Below are positions 3,922 to 60,967 of a stretch of 64,000 nt of DNA, piece by piece. Positions within the stretch are counted from its first letter, which is position 1. The number at the start of each line of letters is the position of its first letter. The position numbers and the translations under genes were made by a program. The notes under the pieces were generated by a model. The model was not told the origin of the DNA. It did not search any database and saw nothing but the letters and a program-made list of their open reading frames with translations. The stretch is from NCBI RefSeq assembly GCF_052324685.1, contig NC_135212.1, positions 45,386,212 through 45,450,211 on the forward strand. Reading direction: 5' to 3'. Source of the DNA: Brachyhypopomus gauderio (Eukaryota; Chordata; Actinopteri; Gymnotiformes; Hypopomidae).

Positions 3922-6368
<2,447 letters not shown>

Positions 6369-24986: not shown

Positions 24987-25510
24987 CTAGCTAGATGCTA
25001 TCGGATCACGGCTAGAAGCTATCGGATCGGGGCTAGAAGCTATCGAACCGGGGCTAGAAGCTATCGGATCGGGGCTAGAAGCTATCGGATCGGGGCTAGA
25101 AGCTATCGGATCGGGGCTAGAAGCTAGCGAACCGGGGCTAGAAGCTAGCGGATCGGGGCTAGAAGCTATCGGATCGGGGCTAGAAGCTATCGGATCACGG
25201 CTAGAAGCTATCGGATCACGGCTAGAAGCTATCGGATCACGGCTAGAAGCTAGCGAACCGGGGCTAGATGCTATCGGATGACGGCTAGAAGCTAGCGAAC
25301 CGGGGCTAAAAGCTAGCGAACCGGAGCTAAAAGCTAGCGAACGGGAGCTAAAAGCTAGCGAACTGGAGCTAGATGCTATCGGACCGGGGCTAGATGCTAT
25401 CGGACCGGGGCTAGATGCTATCGGACCGGGGCTAGATGCTATCGGACCGGGGCTAGATGCTAGCGAACCGGGGCTAGATGCTAGCGGGTAACAGCTAGAT
25501 GCTAGCGGAC
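24987..25510. repeat. 21-bp minisatellite
   Basis: About 25 tandem copies of GGGGCTAGAAGCTATCGGATC and variants (GAAGCTAGCGAACC, GATGCTATCGGACC). Variant types cluster in blocks, which suggests local homogenisation. Units continue sparsely left of the inverted arm (24838-24884). Confidence 0.95.
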
Positions 25511-25856
25511 GTACGTGTACTCCCAGCCGAGAGCTTGATCTTTCAAACGCGGACAGCAACTGTTCCACTGAAACCGTCTGGGAACAGTAACAGTACTGGG
25601 AACAGTAACAGGGAAAAGCACCAACTCTTAGCCGCGATCTTCCTGCTATGTAGTCTGCAGCAGTGAAATGCTGGCTACACACAAAGATGCTCCGTATCAC
25701 AAAGTTTTCCCCTTCATCCCTCCTAATTGCACAAACCCATTTTCTTTTCTGCTCGTCGTCAGCCGGAAAACCGTAGAAACTGAGATACGACTGTTTTTGC
25801 TTCGAGATCGAGCACCCTGGTGCACTGCAAAAGCTCTTGTTATTGGACTCTGCCAT
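24987..25856 (-). CDS. THAP-domain protein fragment with heptapeptide repeat tail
   Basis: A 289-residue open frame. Residues about 11-90 form a THAP (C2CH) zinc-binding domain: CSAPGC supplies the first two Cys, KWVCAIRR the conserved Trp, CSQHF the third Cys and the His with a 44-residue spacer, and RLRVGAFP stands at the usual AVPTIF box. A short linker (SVEQLLSAFER) follows, then about 170 residues of near-perfect heptads of the type SSPGPIA or SSRDPIA, encoded by the 21-bp minisatellite. Because 21 is divisible by three the frame stays open. THAP domains bind DNA, often in transposases. No transposase catalytic region follows, so this is most likely an isolated 5' exon kept by a non-autonomous element. 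Whether it is expressed is unknown. Confidence 0.6.
   Translation of the reverse strand: MAESNNKSFCSAPGCSISKQKQSYLSFYGFPADDEQKRKWVCAIRRDEGENFVIRSIFVCSQHFTAADYIAGRSRLRVGAFPCYCSQYCYCSQTVSVEQLLSAFERSSSRLGVHVRPLASSCYPLASSPGSLASSPGPIASSPGPIASSPGPIASSPGPIASSSSSLAFSSRSLAFSSGSLAFSPGSLASSRHPIASSPGSLASSRDPIASSRDPIASSRDPIASSPDPIASSPDPLASSPGSLASSPDPIASSPDPIASSPDPIASSPGSIASSPDPIASSRDPIASS
25528..25577 (-). repeat. Right arm of inverted repeat around the minisatellite
   Basis: Imperfect reverse complement of 24891-24940 with about five differences; overlaps the THAP frame. Confidence 0.8.
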
Positions 25857-25996
25857 TGTTTAATGTGTAACGGAAGTAACTTTACCCTGCAACGAGAGCT
25901 TCCGGAAGAAAAAATGCGGAAGTGTGAAAAGGGCCTATGGTTTTGAATAACGTGTGAAAGGTTAATTGTGTGCCCTATTTAGCCTTGATAAAAGCC

Positions 25997-36298: not shown

Positions 36299-36890
36299 TC
36301 TTCTTTCTCTTATGGTGCAAAATATTTATTACAATATAGTCAGGTTGCAAAATATAGTTATTTCAGTGTACTATTTTGAAACCAAACCACGCTATTTAAA
36401 TGCATAAATAAATACTTACATTTACATGTTTTGTAAGTGTATCTGTGTATTTAGTTTTCAAGTCTGCGGTGTTATTTAAATCGGGTACACTGTTGAAAAT
36501 ATTAAATTGCTCTTTTCGAGAGTTTTGAGACTAAGACGTTTTAATGCCGTAATACAACACAATATTTATATCACAACATATTGCCTATTCGAGTTCATGT
36601 ATAGTTCATATAGATTGTCAAGACTCTTTGATTACATTTTAATTCAAGACACCTTTAACGAACCTTTAATTGTCTGCACAGTCCTTCTGTACTCAAACTT
36701 TTTTCTCATAAAAAAAATCATTCTAGCATCATGAGAGTCCCTGATTCACACACATATAAGTTCAGTAGTGAGAGGCTAATGAAATTATTCTCCTGTCATA
36801 AAATGTCTGTCACAGCCAGATATCCTTCCGGTGCATATAGAAGACTACGTCTTGAAAGTAAAACAAAAACCTTTTTTTCTCGTGTTTCAG

Positions 36891-37120
36891 CAAAAGACGT
36901 GACCACTGAGGACGCTAAAGGGACCTGTTGTTGGCAAAGACAGGGAGCAAGAAACGATTCACTCACTTCAAACAGCAAATCCTGGAACTTTTATCTTTTC
37001 AACATGTACCTGACTCGAGAGCGCCGCCTGGCAGATACGCCGCGTTGACGGTCTTGGTGACCGCCAAGTTAAAATCTGATTTCAGAATCAAAGGATGAAA
37101 CTAACGGAAATGATTCGAGG
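36891..37120 (+). pseudogene. hoxb10a: hoxb10a pseudogene, exon 2 (homeobox) remnant
   Basis: A homeobox relic in the slot where hoxb10 lies between hoxb13 and hoxb9. A splice acceptor (TTTCAG, 36885-36890) precedes it. Readable pieces, in shifting frames: KTGSKKRFTHFKQQILEL (about 36938-36991), [12 protein letters not shown] (about 36995-37030), DRQVKI, stop, FQNQRMKL (about 37060-37103). They align in order with the Hox10 homeodomain, whose [18 protein letters not shown] and RRMKLKKM signatures separate group 10 from group 9. Lesions: the residues EKEF are deleted with a frameshift, the next segment is shifted again after ERRL, the invariant helix-3 Trp codon is TGA, and the following Arg is Gln. 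DNA contact cannot be made, so the gene is dead. Exon 1 was not found with confidence. Zebrafish keeps an intact hoxb10a, so this looks like a lineage-specific loss. Confidence 0.88.
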
Positions 37121-39014
37121 CCACAGGAACGAGTTTCTCCCTTTGATTTGTTGAAGAAGGTGATTGGATACGCTACTGAGATTGTACCCAATACTGCAAC
37201 GCCTCTGATGGAATATTGTTAACACTTGTTTGATTATCTTAGACACGACGGATAAATTGTAATGCAGATATATGACACGAACATTAGAGGTTTTCCATGG
37301 TAGGCTATGTTCAACAGAATGCTTGGCCATAATTGTTTGATATCGTCTTTCAGGGGACCCACAAAGTTCACTTTACTAGTTACACTTTTTCTTCTTCCAA
37401 AATTATTTATTTTAATATCCTCAGCCAGAATTGTTTACAGTTTGTGAATGTAGAACAAGAGAAACAAAAATAATCCAAACTGTATTAATTATGTATAGCA
37501 AAAACAAATAGATCAGCACAGGGAGAAACAGTAGCACAATAACTTAAACACTTTTGTAAGAAATGCGAAGTTATGCTCAAATAGACACGTTTAAGAAATC
37601 TGAAATACCGTTATGGTCAGTTTCTATTCGTCAAATGGCACGCATGTTGTGGTTAAGCGTAACTGGATGTATATTATTGTTGGTGGTTGACAATTTGATT
37701 TGAGTTTGATACAAAAATAAAACGTTGTGTACGTGATCGTAGTGGAAATAGTATCCGTTGTCGGCCATTTTGATAGATATGACTTTACAAGTGTTTTGAG
37801 TTTTGTGTTGACATATTTCATGGGATGTATGTCGATGTAACTCACATAGAGAAACTGGTTCTGTCGTTCAGTTTTCTACTTTTCTAGTTCACCCAAGTGC
37901 ACTTTTTAATTATTCAATGTGCATTCCGTTATCGGGTTTTGAAAGGACATTTCATATTTATATTTTACACGCCTGTTCGTTTTTGCACTTATACGTTCTT
38001 TAGGAATTTGATCTACACTATAGACAGGAGATTGATCTACACTATAAAGACGACAGATTAAACAGGCTCAAACTCAAAGGACGTTTCTGTATTTAAATTA
38101 TGATCCAGTGCTGTTGAGATCATAACGTGTTTGGCATAAGTATGTCGAAATTTAAAAGTGAAGTTGCAAACAACATGATGTTTACGGGTCCAGTAATTCT
38201 GCCTGTAGAACACAGAGCAATATGCTATATGCCTTGATGAATAGCCTACCTGTGAAAGTACCGACTAACAGAAACGTTATGTTGTGCATTACCCTTTTTT
38301 ATCTTAGAGAGGATGAAGAGATTTATCTTGTTCTGCATTTCGAATTGAAGCTATTAGATTTCCACAGTTTGAGGTTGTACAATATCACTCCGAGTTATTG
38401 TCGTAATCATTCTTCTATTGTTATACGTTAGGTTGCTTTCTGAAGCAAAGACAAAATGTTTTCTGTTATTATGCATGTTTTTTTTTCATTTTTGCCTGTG
38501 CTGTGGAGTTAGAATTTTAATGTCTCGAGTGTTAAGAAGAAATAATTCAAAACATGTGCGGATACTACGCACAAAATACAGCTGCTGCCCTTTTGTCTGA
38601 GTGAGAGTCTACGTCGTCTGTGCTTTTGGTAACCGCCATGTTTAGAGCCCATAATTCCCAACGTCATTGGCTAGGCAAACCTCCCTGTTTTAACTAGGGG
38701 CAATAGAGTCGCTTTTTATTACCTAGCTAGGCGCTTGTAGTCAAACGACAGGATGTGCTTGTGAACTTAAATTACTTTATACCGGTTACCTGCTTTGAAC
38801 AATAGTCCGAAATTTAGGCGTCGTAAATTAATTAAACAATGCACGCCTTTTAACAAATCCCTTATAGAATCAATTTTCTGTATAATTCATTTGTGGTAGT
38901 TTTACTCTGCACTAACACACGATTCTCTACACTGAAATCCGAGTATGCAGCTCACTGTCTCCGCGCCTACTGGCGCGCGGCCAGGGCTTCGCCTTTGAAC
39001 GCGCAGAAGGTCAA
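37121..39014. other. hoxb10 remnant to mir-196 interval
   Basis: AT-rich. It includes a short direct duplication GATCTACACTATA (38009-38045) and a GC-richer block just before the hairpin (38930-39010), which may belong to the miRNA primary transcript or its promoter. No gene recognised. Confidence 0.4.
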
Positions 39015-39015
39015 G

Positions 39016-39101
39016 CTGCTCTGTGATTTAGGTAGTTTCACGTTGTTGGGGCTCGACGTTTAATAACACAGGAACCTGAAACTGCCTGAATTACTCCAGT
39101 T
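39016..39101 (+). ncRNA. mir196: miR-196 precursor hairpin
   Basis: The mature 5p sequence at 39029-39050 begins TAGGTAGTTTCACGTTGTTG and ends GG; its seed AGGTAGT is that of miR-196. The 3' arm GAACCTGAAACTGCCTGAAT (from 39072) pairs with it to form a long hairpin with outer stem CTCTGTGAT / TTACTCCAG. The location, between hoxb10 and hoxb9, is the conserved mir-196 position. Position 13 is C, whereas canonical miR-196a has U there. miR-196 represses posterior Hox mRNAs, above all Hox8 genes, after transcription. The site downstream of hoxb8a (55226-55246) is its obvious local target. Confidence 0.95.
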
Positions 39102-42100: not shown

Positions 42101-42515
42101 TTCTTTGTGGCCTATTACTTCACGTATTATACATTTTTATTCATATTGTCAAAACGTTGCATAATTTAAGTGGGTATTTCCCCGACAGATGGTAGATATC
42201 TTAGGATATATGGACACACTCCCATTTTGCATATTACATAAACAAGACAGTTTATTTAGAGTGGAAAATATGGATAGCGCAAGAGGAGGAGAGCTCCGCG
42301 CAGCCCCTTGGCGGATTGATTTACGCCCCATTGACTCTTTATCAGCCTCGCGAAAAAAGACTGACCAATCATTTCGCTCGAAGCGCACAACATAGCAGCC
42401 CGGCTCTACTTTGTTGGCGAACGCGTAGAGACAGCGTCGTGGAAAGGGGGGGAAAGCCCAGTTCTTTGGTACATGTTTTCCCTTCAATGAACCGTACGTT
42501 GTATAATGTCCGAGA
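39102..42515 (+). promoter_or_regulatory. mir-196 to hoxb9a interval and hoxb9a promoter
   Basis: AT-rich, with no gene seen until about 42280. The last 240 bases become GC-richer and contain a Pbx-Hox-like TTGATTTAC (about 42317), an inverted CCAAT (CCATTGAC), and CCAATCA (42364), consistent with the hoxb9a promoter and 5' UTR. The promoter is inferred from position and motifs. Confidence 0.4.
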
Positions 42516-45500
42516 ATGTCCATTTCTGGAGCTCTAAGCAACTACTATGTCGATTCCATCATAAGTCATGAGGCGGAAGATCCTAGCGCTGCCCGATTTT
42601 CCAATGTACAATACTCCAACTCTCGGCAGCCGGGAACCGGGGAGCATCCCGAATTCCCATCGTGTAGCTTTCAACCCAAGCCTCCCGTGTTTAGTTCATC
42701 ATGGAGTCCTTTCAGCCCCCACGCGCCCAACGGCTTACCAGCGGTCTACCACCCCTATATTCCAACGCAGCCCGTGCCTTCATCGGACACCCGGTACCTC
42801 CGTACATGGCTGGACTGTGCTCCGCGAGCAGAACCTCTACCAGGCCAGAACCAGGTCAAGATGGAGCCTCTTCTGGGACACCTCGGGGAGCCCCCTAAAC
42901 TCGGAGGACAACATGAATATGTTTTGGAATCCTCTTCTGCTCGGGAGATGAATTCCGGCCACGGCTCGGGATTTGAAGACAGTAAGGACATTTGCGAAGG
43001 TAGCGAGGACAAAGAAGCACCAGATCAAAGTAAGTTATAAAACGAGGAAGTGAAGCGTCTGTAAACCTTTTAATGCTGTCATAAAAAGGCGAACAAAGCA
43101 AGCGAGACTCACTGCCTCTCCACGCAGCCAAGTTTGCTCATGTGGCAAGCAGCGATCGACAGACAGTGTATTGGCGTGTATGCTACGTTGATATCAGATT
43201 GTGCATTTTTTTTGCTTGCCATTGGTTTTAAAACCCGAAGCTATCTACTGGCACCGTTTGTTTTTTTGTTACTAATTTACTTTCTTCTTTCTCACCCTTG
43301 GGTTTGGATATGTGTGTATATGAATGTGTGTGTTTGTGTGTGACAACGCCTGTAATTCGCGCTTGAGCACACGTCAGCTTTAAGCAGCCTATATTCACCA
43401 ATATATTTATTTTCTTTCAGATTCTCTAGTCCAGGTTTATACGTTTATTATAACTTAAAGTAATATTACAACTCATATATGCTGCTTTTTAATTTTCGTG
43501 AACGTTAAAAGCACATCGTTCACCCGCAGCCTCCGTGGAGTGTGGCTGGTAGTCAGTGCAAGTCCACAGTCATACGAGTATAGTGATGAGGACGACGGCG
43601 TAGCGTAGACATTTATATTCTTCACAGTATATCTCGAACATGGCTTTTTCCTCAAGATGAGTCTTACTGACACTTATTTATAGTTGCTCTCCCACCGGAG
43701 GGACAGCCTCCTGCTCCACTGATATCCCACACGCCTAAAATGTACTTTAATTTGTAACCGAGAGGGGAATGTATCTTGACAAACGGTTGTTTTAGATTTA
43801 GGAGGACTGACGTGGAACGAACATTGATTCTAATTCATGAAGTAGGCTCGATCAACACAAACACTAATGGAACGGTGTGCAACAGAAATCCCTATTGTGC
43901 TACCCTGGGCGGCGTTCCAGTATAAACTGTAGGAAAAGGCAATGAAGTTGCGAATTACATGCCCCACTTTGTGCTCGCAGCTGCCACGAGAGGCAAAGAA
44001 AGTTATTGCCCCCAAGTTTATTAAGTTACAAGAAGAGTCAACATATCCATTAATTGTTGTGTGTGGCCTCTCTGGGACACATGGTGCAAAAAGGTCTAGA
44101 TGAAATACGATGCAATCAAAACGCAAGGGAATGTAATATCACGCTTCCTAATGTGAAAACCCCATTTTCTACTAAAACACTGCGATGATATTGTCAGGAG
44201 GTATTGCTATAAATGAGGCTGTCAACTTTCAGCGTGTTGTTTTTTTTTTCTAATGGACGTCGTGCACCTTAATGTTTATTGTTTGAGATTATGTTTCTCC
44301 TAAATAAGAATGTGGTGGCTTACACACCTAACGCATGCTTCTCTCGAGGCCGCGAGGCCTAGCTGATTGACACATGAATTAATCATTCCTGATAGGGGAA
44401 TCTTTCTTTTCTTCTGGTGAAATAAACAGAATTGCGCCACGTGAGTTAGAATATTCAAGACAGCTTATGCAGTACAAGGTTGTGCGTTTGGAAGTGTGAG
44501 AAGTGTGAGAATTTACATGCGTATAAGAACAATGGCTGAATCCATGGAAGCTTAGGTGTCCATGTTATGCTAGTTTGTCACGCGAAGACAAGAAGTTCTC
44601 TGATTATGCGGTAAGGATAGCAGGAAAGAATCCAGGGCTTGGGAAGAATGTGAATCTCTTCATATCGCCCTTTAACCTCGGTGGTCCCAGTTTCGCTTAC
44701 ACCAATTCCCAGGTCGTATCAATATCCAATGTTTGAAACCCAGATAACAGGGAAAATCTGTAGCACGAAAAGCAGTCTCCAAATATATATTCCCAAAGGC
44801 AATTTAGTGGAAACATTTTTGAACTCCCATCTGCATTCTCGAGAAAGCCACAAAGGGACAAGTCGTCTAGTTAGAGAAACTCGTCCTTCCTAATTCTCTC
44901 CACATTTCTCCCTAAAAGGAGATACAATCTATGAATCAAACGCGACAGCGGTTTGGAACGCATTGCAGTATGGTTAAAGTGTTATGGGGCGAGGCGAGAG
45001 GGTGGCTAAGCCATAATTGGATCGTCGAGGCAGAGCTGAAATTCAAAGATTGTATCTTATGTGATGCTGTATTCAGTGTCATTGCACAGGTTCCGGACAC
45101 CAATGGTTTTCTTGGAGCCGTCAAGTCCAACCCGACATGACCTGACACCCTGCCTTCTGATTAACGCGACATGTGTAGACTCCTATAAGAGAGCATGCAG
45201 CTATCTGTAACCTATTACGAATCGTTAGTAAACAAGAAAAGGTTCTAGGCCCTCTGTGGAATCGCATGTGTGCCTATAATGTAGACTATAATAATACATG
45301 TATATTATCCAGCCTTTTTACCGGGTGGGAGGGGGCGTATTTTAGTTATGCTGGCTGTCTGTGAACTCCAAGGTAAATCTAAACTGAAAGTGTTATCGTA
45401 TTCTCTCCGTTAGCAGAATATTTTGATTTTAAACACTGATTGTGTTGTCATTTGCAGACGATCCATCGGCCAACTGGTTACATGCTCGCTCGTCCCGCAA

Positions 45501-45693
45501 GAAGCGATGCCCTTACACTAAATATCAAACCCTGGAGCTCGAAAAGGAATTTCTCTTCAATATGTACCTCACCCGGGACCGGCGACACGAGGTAGCGCGT
45601 TTGCTGAACTTGACGGAGCGGCAAGTGAAAATTTGGTTCCAAAACCGAAGGATGAAAATGAAGAAAATGAATAAGGACCAGTCCAAGGAATAA
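42516..45693 (+). CDS. hoxb9a: Homeobox protein Hoxb9a
   Basis: Two exons: 42516-43029 (donor AAA|GTAAGT) and 45458-45693 (acceptor TTTGCAG, stop TAA 45691-45693), phase 1, 249 residues. The N-terminus [19 protein letters not shown] is diagnostic of Hox9 proteins. The exon-1 segments [20 protein letters not shown] and CSFQPK, and the acidic [11 protein letters not shown] before the junction, fit Hoxb9. The junction gives [20 protein letters not shown]; the Trp of ANWLHA serves as the Pbx-contact residue in place of YPWM. The homeodomain is at about 184-243, with [20 protein letters not shown] and [10 protein letters not shown] typical of group 9. Role by family: nuclear transcription factor of thoracic/posterior trunk identity. 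The intron (2.4 kb) contains a Pbx-Meis-like TGATTGACAC site. The 'a' suffix is inferred from cluster content. Confidence 0.96.
44330..44400 (+). promoter_or_regulatory. Candidate Pbx/Meis-Hox element in the hoxb9a intron
   Basis: TGATTGACAC (44364-44373), 9 of 10 to the Pbx-Meis/Prep decamer, is followed at once by the AT-rich homeodomain-type sequence ATGAATTAATCATT (44374-44387). The closeness of the two sites suggests a Hox-responsive enhancer. Not proven without conservation data. Confidence 0.4.
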
Positions 45694-53212: not shown

Positions 53213-54781
53213 ATGAGCTCATATTTTGTCAACTCACTCTTCTCCAAATACAAAAGTGGAGACTCGTTACGTCCTAATTATTATGAGTGCGGTTTTGCGC
53301 AGGACTTGGGGACTAGACCCACCGTCGTATACGGTCCAGGCACCGGGGCAACTTTCCAACATGCCCCACAGATTCAGGAGTTTTACCACCACGGTGCGTC
53401 CACGCTCTCTGCCGCTCCTTACCAGCAAAGTCCATGTGCCGTAACATGTCACGGCGAGCCAGGCAATTTCTATGGTTACGATGCACTCCAAAGGCAAACT
53501 CTCTTCGGTGCGCAGGACGCCGACTTGGTCCAGTATAGCGACTGCAAACTCGCCGCGGGAGGCATCGGCGACGAGACGGACAACACGGAGCAGAGTCCGT
53601 CCCCTACGCAGCTGTTTCCCTGGATGCGACCGCAAGGTGAGCCTCGGTAGACAGACAGCTCTGCCAACTCTCTCATAGCTTGTGTGTTTGTGTTGGTGGG
53701 AGTGGGATAAAACTTAGTAAGCAGCTCGAAAAATCTCCGGGCAATTTAGTCTGAGAGCCACATTTCCTGTGTACGCGCGAGAGAGGAACAATAGCGGGTT
53801 TTTTATTGTTTTATGGTGTCCAAAACTTGTGAATCACTTTACAGTTTATTGACCCTGCTATAGAAAGAGGAGAGAAGGAGAGAAGGAGAGAAGGAGAGAA
53901 TGAGAGAGAGAGAGAGAGTGAGTAAGCGAGAGAGCGAGAGACAGTGAGAGGAAAGTACTATTATTTTCCTTCTGTCCTTATGTGTGAGACTGGCCCATAG
54001 CTGATCCGTCAGTTCTCACCCCAGTCAAAGTTTTACTGCAGCTTTTTTACGACTTACAGTGATGTTGGGTCTTATTTCGCATCGGGGTGGCCATTTCGCA
54101 CAGGTTCTGTCTTTTATGGCACTGCACATATGAAAGGACGTTAGCTGTCTTTTGACAGTTCCGGAACCGCTTCTGATGTGCATATTAGTGAATATTCGTG
54201 TGTACTTGTGTATTTCTTTGTGATTCTTTGTGCAGTGGTCATTTCATAACTGTTTTGGAGAGGTATCCGGGGTACATCCTACCCATAAACGGACAGTGTG
54301 CTTGTACTAGTAGCTAGATTAGCAAAGCATTTGAATAAGGTTTAATATCAAACAAGCTTATTATAAACAATCAAGTGACTATTTCCTATTTTTCAAATGT
54401 GCAGGTTTACTGAACCATTTTGAACTGTTTCTAATTTCTAATGTGTTTGACCTTGTTTTGCCAGTAGCTGCCGGACGCAGGCGAGGACGCCAGACCTACA
54501 GCCGCTACCAGACACTCGAGCTGGAGAAGGAGTTTCTCTTCAACCCCTACCTGACGCGCAAGCGGCGCATAGAGGTGTCGCACGCCTTGGGACTGACCGA
54601 ACGGCAGGTCAAAATCTGGTTTCAAAATCGGCGTATGAAATGGAAAAAGGAAAACAACAAGGACAAGTTTCCCAGCAGTAAGTCAGAACAGGAAGCGATC
54701 GAAAAGGAGAAGCGTGAGAAAGAACAGGCGGCCGGATCACAGTCGGCAAGTGAGGACTGCCAGAAAGCGAAACAAATATAG
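53213..54781 (+). CDS. hoxb8a: Homeobox protein Hoxb8a
   Basis: Two exons: 53213-53636 (donor G|GTGAGC) and 54465-54781 (acceptor GCCAG, stop TAG 54779-54781), phase 1, 246 residues. The start [20 protein letters not shown] is the Hox8 N-terminus. The in-frame open sequence back to 53018 has no Hox similarity and is taken as 5' UTR. Exon 1 holds [50 protein letters not shown] and SEC-type [11 protein letters not shown] blocks, all Hoxb8-like, ending with the Pbx-contact hexapeptide LFPWMRP. The homeodomain at about 145-205 ([12 protein letters not shown] to [20 protein letters not shown]) is intact. The tail is a Lys/Glu-rich stretch. Role by family: nuclear transcription factor of trunk and neural patterning. 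The 3' flank carries a near-complete miR-196 site. The intron (828 bp) holds a GAGA-rich tract. Confidence 0.97.
53863..53950. repeat. GAGA-rich tract in the hoxb8a intron
   Basis: Purine-only repeat of GAGAAGGA and (GA)n units. It could be neutral or act as a GAGA-factor-type accessible site. Confidence 0.8.

Positions 54782-56822: not shown

Positions 56823-60967
<4,145 letters not shown>

Follow-up and report, generated by a model that had tools for sequence, protein, structure and literature searches.

Remains of a broken hoxb10a homeobox exon, almost certainly a unitary pseudogene, in the HoxBa cluster of a fish

The HoxBa cluster of this fish carries the decayed remains of a homeobox exon which, compared with the Hox genes of the same genome, is almost certainly what is left of hoxb10a, that is, a unitary (unprocessed, in-place) pseudogene of that gene. 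The relic occupies positions 36891-37127 on the plus strand of the window, by which is meant the whole stretch of 64,000 nucleotides that was analysed (contig C2, 45386212-45450211, of an assembly of 796.5 Mb in 840 contigs), and it is split over three reading frames.

The window covers the 5′ part of the HoxBa cluster, and its Hox genes all lie on the plus strand. The gene hoxb13a is represented by exon 1, within an open frame at 4918-5814 (Pfam PF12284, E 4.3e-46), and by its homeobox exon 2, within an open frame at 6054-6368 (Pfam PF00046, E 4.5e-19), which has a Hox13-type sequence. The mir-196 precursor is found at 39020-39097, also on the plus strand, between the relic and hoxb9a, and matches Rfam RF00256 at 70.9 bits, above the gathering threshold of 55.4. 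It is followed by exon 1 of hoxb9a, within an open frame at 42507-43040 (Pfam PF04617, Hox9_act, E 1.1e-55), and by the homeobox exon 2 of the same gene at 45457-45693, recognised by sequence, tblastn and Pfam. Further along are the homeobox exon 2 of hoxb8a, within an open frame at 54335-54781 (sequence and Pfam), and another homeobox exon 2 within an open frame at 60605-60967 (sequence, Pfam and position), which its sequence and place mark as that of hoxb7a. Some 7 kb beyond the left end of the window there is an Evx-like homeodomain, in two pieces on the minus strand. Between hoxb13a and the relic there is also a minisatellite (24990-25487), in which a 21-base unit is repeated about 24 times; it sits inside a stop-to-stop frame of 290 residues on the minus strand (24987-25859).

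Open Hox10 homeoboxes, among the matches listed, belong to hoxa10a, hoxa10b, hoxc10a and hoxd10a, located on contigs C6, C13, C21 and C4, which correspond to the HoxAa, HoxAb, HoxCa and HoxDa clusters. The exon-2 proteins of these four intact genes were used as tblastn queries against the window and nine further stretches of the same genome, and they match the relic in three consecutive pieces, each in a different frame and each resembling the Hox10 homeodomain, with a joint E of 1.1e-9 to 4.7e-9 over the four queries. The first piece (36928-36990, plus strand), LLAKTGSKKRFTHFKQQILEL, covers the final residues before the homeodomain, the N-terminal arm and the start of helix 1, and is 57% identical to Hox10 across 21 residues. 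The second (36992-37030, plus strand) has 12 of its 13 residues as in Hox10 and includes 29 bases identical to hoxd10a. The third (37032-37127, plus strand), which reads QIRRVDGLGDRQVKI, then a stop, then FQNQRMKLTEMIRGHR, covers helices 2 and 3 and the residues after the homeodomain. Ahead of the pieces, a pyrimidine-rich tract ending in CAG (36870-36890, plus strand) resembles a splice acceptor and corresponds in place to the exon-2 acceptors of the four intact paralogues.

The original prediction had placed the homeobox exon at 36891-37120, between hoxb13a and mir-196/hoxb9a, and had listed a deletion over the EKEF segment, further frame changes and the conversion of the invariant tryptophan codon of helix 3 into TGA. 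The neighbourhood is borne out by Pfam, Rfam and tblastn, with all its members on one strand; the start is indeed the first base after the acceptor-like AG (36889-36890), and homology to Hox10 stops near 37127, slightly beyond the end first given. All the lesions are also present. The residues EKE are absent between pieces 1 and 2, where one base is left over, for a net loss of 8 bases; one base has been gained after RRL, between pieces 2 and 3 and before 37032; and the tryptophan codon is TGA at 37077-37079. In addition, the distance from the acceptor to the leucine codon of NWL, counted in the sequence, is 37 bases in the relic, whereas the paralogues have 32 or 35, and this points to one more frame offset upstream.

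Chance resemblance to Hox10 is excluded, since the relic scores 156.5 with a frameshift-aware profile while 150 shuffled versions reach at most 39.0, and since other parts of the region stay at a similarly low level. Among 309 tiles of the plus strand (6401 to about 45200), the next two scores, 80.0 and 76.5, belong to tiles that overlap the relic, and the best tile that does not overlap it scores 41.2; the top score of 255 tiles of the minus strand is 42.0. Pfam gave no match in the relic pieces submitted, and the PDB gave none for piece 1. In a collection of viral contigs, 0 of 16 candidate stretches were confirmed as relatives, and in a collection of genome contigs 1 of 101 was, an uninformative homeobox of 39% identity from a bacterial assembly.

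The constraint on the protein is gone. The four intact Hox10 genes agree with one another at 115 first and second codon positions, and the relic departs from them at 24 of these, a Jukes-Cantor distance of 0.245; if the worst-aligned stretch (37035-37058) is left out, 17 of 103 positions are changed and the distance is 0.186. The relic keeps 41 of the 59 residues that are common to all four intact genes. When each intact gene is held against the other three in the same way, only 1/116, 0/115, 4/119 and 4/119 positions are changed. The Hox10 paralogues are products of old vertebrate duplications and of the teleost duplication, and the change that the relic has built up since its loss therefore exceeds that of the working genes over a far longer time. 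A broken frame and lost constraint, as expected of a unitary pseudogene, are found together, in the form of the three frames, the TGA and the 24 changed positions of 115.

Neutral rates lie at 1-4e-9 per site per year, and at such rates the 0.186-0.245 substitutions per site would put the loss at roughly 45-250 million years ago. The loss is old, but it need not reach back to the teleost duplication, which the available part of one study dates to about 350 million years ago (PMC4166920). The idea that this locus catches the loss of a Hox gene while the residue is still legible holds in so far as the homeobox can still be read, but a fresh loss is too strong a reading, as about 0.19-0.25 substitutions per site mark an old one.

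The legibility of the relic could itself have a cause, namely that the DNA or RNA still has a job, as an enhancer or as an exon of a non-coding transcript, and that the core (36992-37030), together with the acceptor, would have outlasted the protein because the stretch took on regulatory work in the HoxBa cluster or a function as non-coding RNA there. The acceptor is still present, and at 36996-37029 there is a run of 22 consecutive invariant sites that are unchanged; within it, third positions match those of hoxc10a in 10 of 12 cases, against 17 of 54 elsewhere in the relic. The run, however, was chosen after being seen, and its permutation P is 0.077. Moreover, the intact hoxc10a and hoxd10a agree with each other in much the same way, at 10/12 third positions in this stretch and 25/54 elsewhere, so the likeness of the core was probably there before the loss and adds to the case for the Hox10 identity of the relic. 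Such a retained role is improbable, and plain decay of a hoxb10a exon remains the preferred reading.

The profile scores, the diagnostic residues and the trees all make a Hox10 origin the best-supported assignment of the sequence. With the frameshift-aware profiles, Hox10 scores 156.5, Hox9 135.8, Hox11 117.6 and Hox8 110.8, and the other Hox groups are also below Hox10; as sources of the relic, all of these groups other than Hox10 were set aside on this score. Ten alignment columns are diagnostic in that no residue is common to the six Hox9 and the four Hox10 genes of this genome, and in these the relic has the Hox10 state six times (G, E, L, I, D, L), the Hox9 state once and neither state three times. 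In a maximum-likelihood tree of 29 rows (Hox8-13), the relic joins Hox10 with support of 94/87, outside the four intact paralogues, and in one of 15 rows (Hox8-10) with more columns it joins Hox10 with support of 87/86. Because the relic forms a long branch, its identity is not settled by tree placement alone. A DNA search of the genome with 256 bases listed as matches the relic itself and hoxc10a (E 5.4e-8).

It is very improbable that hoxb9a was instead duplicated in tandem and that the relic is what remains of exon 2 of the extra copy, although several results lean that way. In a plain DNA alignment with 39 homeoboxes, hoxb9a comes second with 371, after hoxa10b with 405.5 and ahead of the other three Hox10 genes (hoxa10a 363, hoxd10a 352.5, hoxc10a 349; hoxc9b has 350), so pairwise DNA scores leave some overlap between the groups. 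A Hox9 placement also survives the AU test (p 0.093 for the 29-row set and 0.204 for the 15-row set), and there is the one diagnostic residue in the Hox9 state, which falls in the worst-aligned stretch. Against these stand a Hox10 profile score higher by 20.7, the six Hox10-state residues out of ten, and the exact match of 29 bases, which is to hoxd10a. The relic also lies upstream of mir-196, which is where the ancestral order places Hox10, and it is this place, in the series hoxb13a, relic, mir-196 and hoxb9a on one strand, that identifies the gene as hoxb10a. The predicted hoxb10 identity is therefore upheld, with the group given by score, residues and tree and the gene by position, and no better match to hoxb9, hoxb11 or another paralogue was found, although hoxb9a ranks second in the DNA alignment.

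That assembly or sequencing errors have broken a working gene is unlikely in the extreme, even though a single assembly was seen, because otherwise invariant sites are substituted in addition to the frame changes and because the 56 of the best 60 homeodomain matches that lie on seven Hox contigs are all without a stop (150 of 205 candidates were scored).

Most likely, one of originally five Hox10 genes was simply lost. The gene hoxb10a would have stood between hoxb13a and mir-196/hoxb9a, and its function would have been lost in the ancestry of this fish. It would then have decayed neutrally, with no selection on the protein, and gathered the net deletion of 8 bases, the insertion of one base, the further frame offset and the nonsense change at the helix-3 tryptophan. 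As its sequence reads, the relic cannot now make a homeodomain. Redundancy with hoxa10a, hoxa10b, hoxc10a and hoxd10a may have allowed the loss, since with these four homeoboxes still open hoxb10a could be dispensable. Among the matches listed in the homeodomain and DNA searches, there is no intact copy of hoxb10a elsewhere in the genome. With tblastn, no Hox10 match was found in the 30 kb upstream of hoxb8b (contig C3), nor a convincing Hox10 relic in the hoxc10b region (contig C1).

The first exon of hoxb10a was sought in the window at 6400-36880 and not found, the best E being 0.10, in a search whose power to detect it is low according to simulations. The queries were the Hox10 exon-1 proteins of hoxa10b, hoxc10a and hoxd10a and, in one search, also the odd frame upstream of the hoxa10a homeobox. 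With an assumed indel rate of 0.015, a simulated decayed exon 1 was detected in 15/20, 3/20 and 15/20 trials at d 0.17 and in 9/20, 0/20 and 9/20 trials at d 0.21, so deletion of exon 1 is not claimed.

The loss of hoxb10a in this fish is probably separate from that in other groups, as judged from Hox gene content. The genome keeps the HoxCb cluster, hoxd13a and hoxb8b, which percomorphs are described as being without (PMC5168715, available part). The available part of another study (PMC6173838) assigns the loss of hoxa2a, hoxa10a and hoxc8b to the ancestor of zebrafish and catfish and that of hoxa5a and hoxa11a to the catfish line, and this genome keeps all five. This fish is thus not a percomorph, and by gene content it is not near zebrafish or striped catfish. 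The original prediction of an independent loss event is therefore likely to be right, but gene content falls short of proof.

According to the parts of the sources that are available, striped catfish (PMC6173838) and percomorphs (PMC5168715, PMC7057633) are without hoxb10a, and zebrafish keeps it. As in this fish, the gene is gone from the HoxBa cluster of striped catfish and percomorphs, whose Hox gene content differs from that found here; in those groups its absence is reported and remains are not described in the same available text, whereas here the homeobox is legible. Pantodon, likewise a non-percomorph teleost without hoxb10, has lost both copies and has only five Hox clusters (PMC4166920, available part), in contrast to Hox genes on seven contigs here. 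The loss may nevertheless be one that this fish has in common with bony-tongues such as Pantodon. In tetrapods, the same ancestral gene, hoxb10, was lost in a far separate lineage, while coelacanth and lungfishes keep it; the available parts of the sources do not describe tetrapod remains.

Broken Hox genes are known from other fishes, and the relic is a new example of this known kind. The parts available of the relevant studies name pseudogenes of hoxa2a, hoxa7a and hoxa10a in zebrafish (PMC6173838), a hoxa7a pseudogene in Gulf pipefish, which retains part of exon 1 and no trace of the homeobox exon (PMC5168715), and fragments of hoxd2 and hoxa13 in Pantodon (PMC4166920). These are likewise remains of single genes after the teleost duplication, although of different genes, and the pipefish case is the reverse of the present one, in which the homeobox was found and exon 1 was not. 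No account of hoxb10a remains was found in the open-access literature, in so far as its text was available, and absence from print is not claimed. Where there would otherwise be only a missing gene, the relic offers positive evidence, in the form of a broken homeobox whose lesions can be identified. These can be traced through related species in order to date the loss and to count hoxb10a losses in teleosts, and repeated loss would become testable by shared lesions. The view of how Hox genes work is unaffected by the relic.

By gene order and sequence, the seven Hox contigs of this genome are assigned to the clusters Aa, Ab, Ba, Bb, Ca, Cb and Da. The HoxCb cluster (contig C1, 8441477-8509387) is rather full, with at least 8 homeoboxes, of which hoxc13b, hoxc12b, hoxc11b, hoxc9b, hoxc8b and hoxc5b were named by sequence and order, and hoxc6b and hoxc4b by order alone. 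In the HoxAa cluster, the homeobox of hoxa10a is open, and a frame upstream of it resembles only the later part of a Hox10 exon 1, with 25% identity to that of hoxd10a (E 2e-8). A start of the Hox10 type (FLVDSL-like) was not picked up by a simple motif search of 7.5 kb at this locus (contig C6, 19291500-19299000), and the sequence hints that exon 1 of hoxa10a may be truncated or fast-evolving. Outside the Hox contigs, the matches listed include four Hox-like homeodomains, on contig C9 (11486283-11491365) and contig C7 (33633059 and 10623976), which are 59-63% identical to hoxb9a and may represent ParaHox genes or what is left of a HoxDb cluster.
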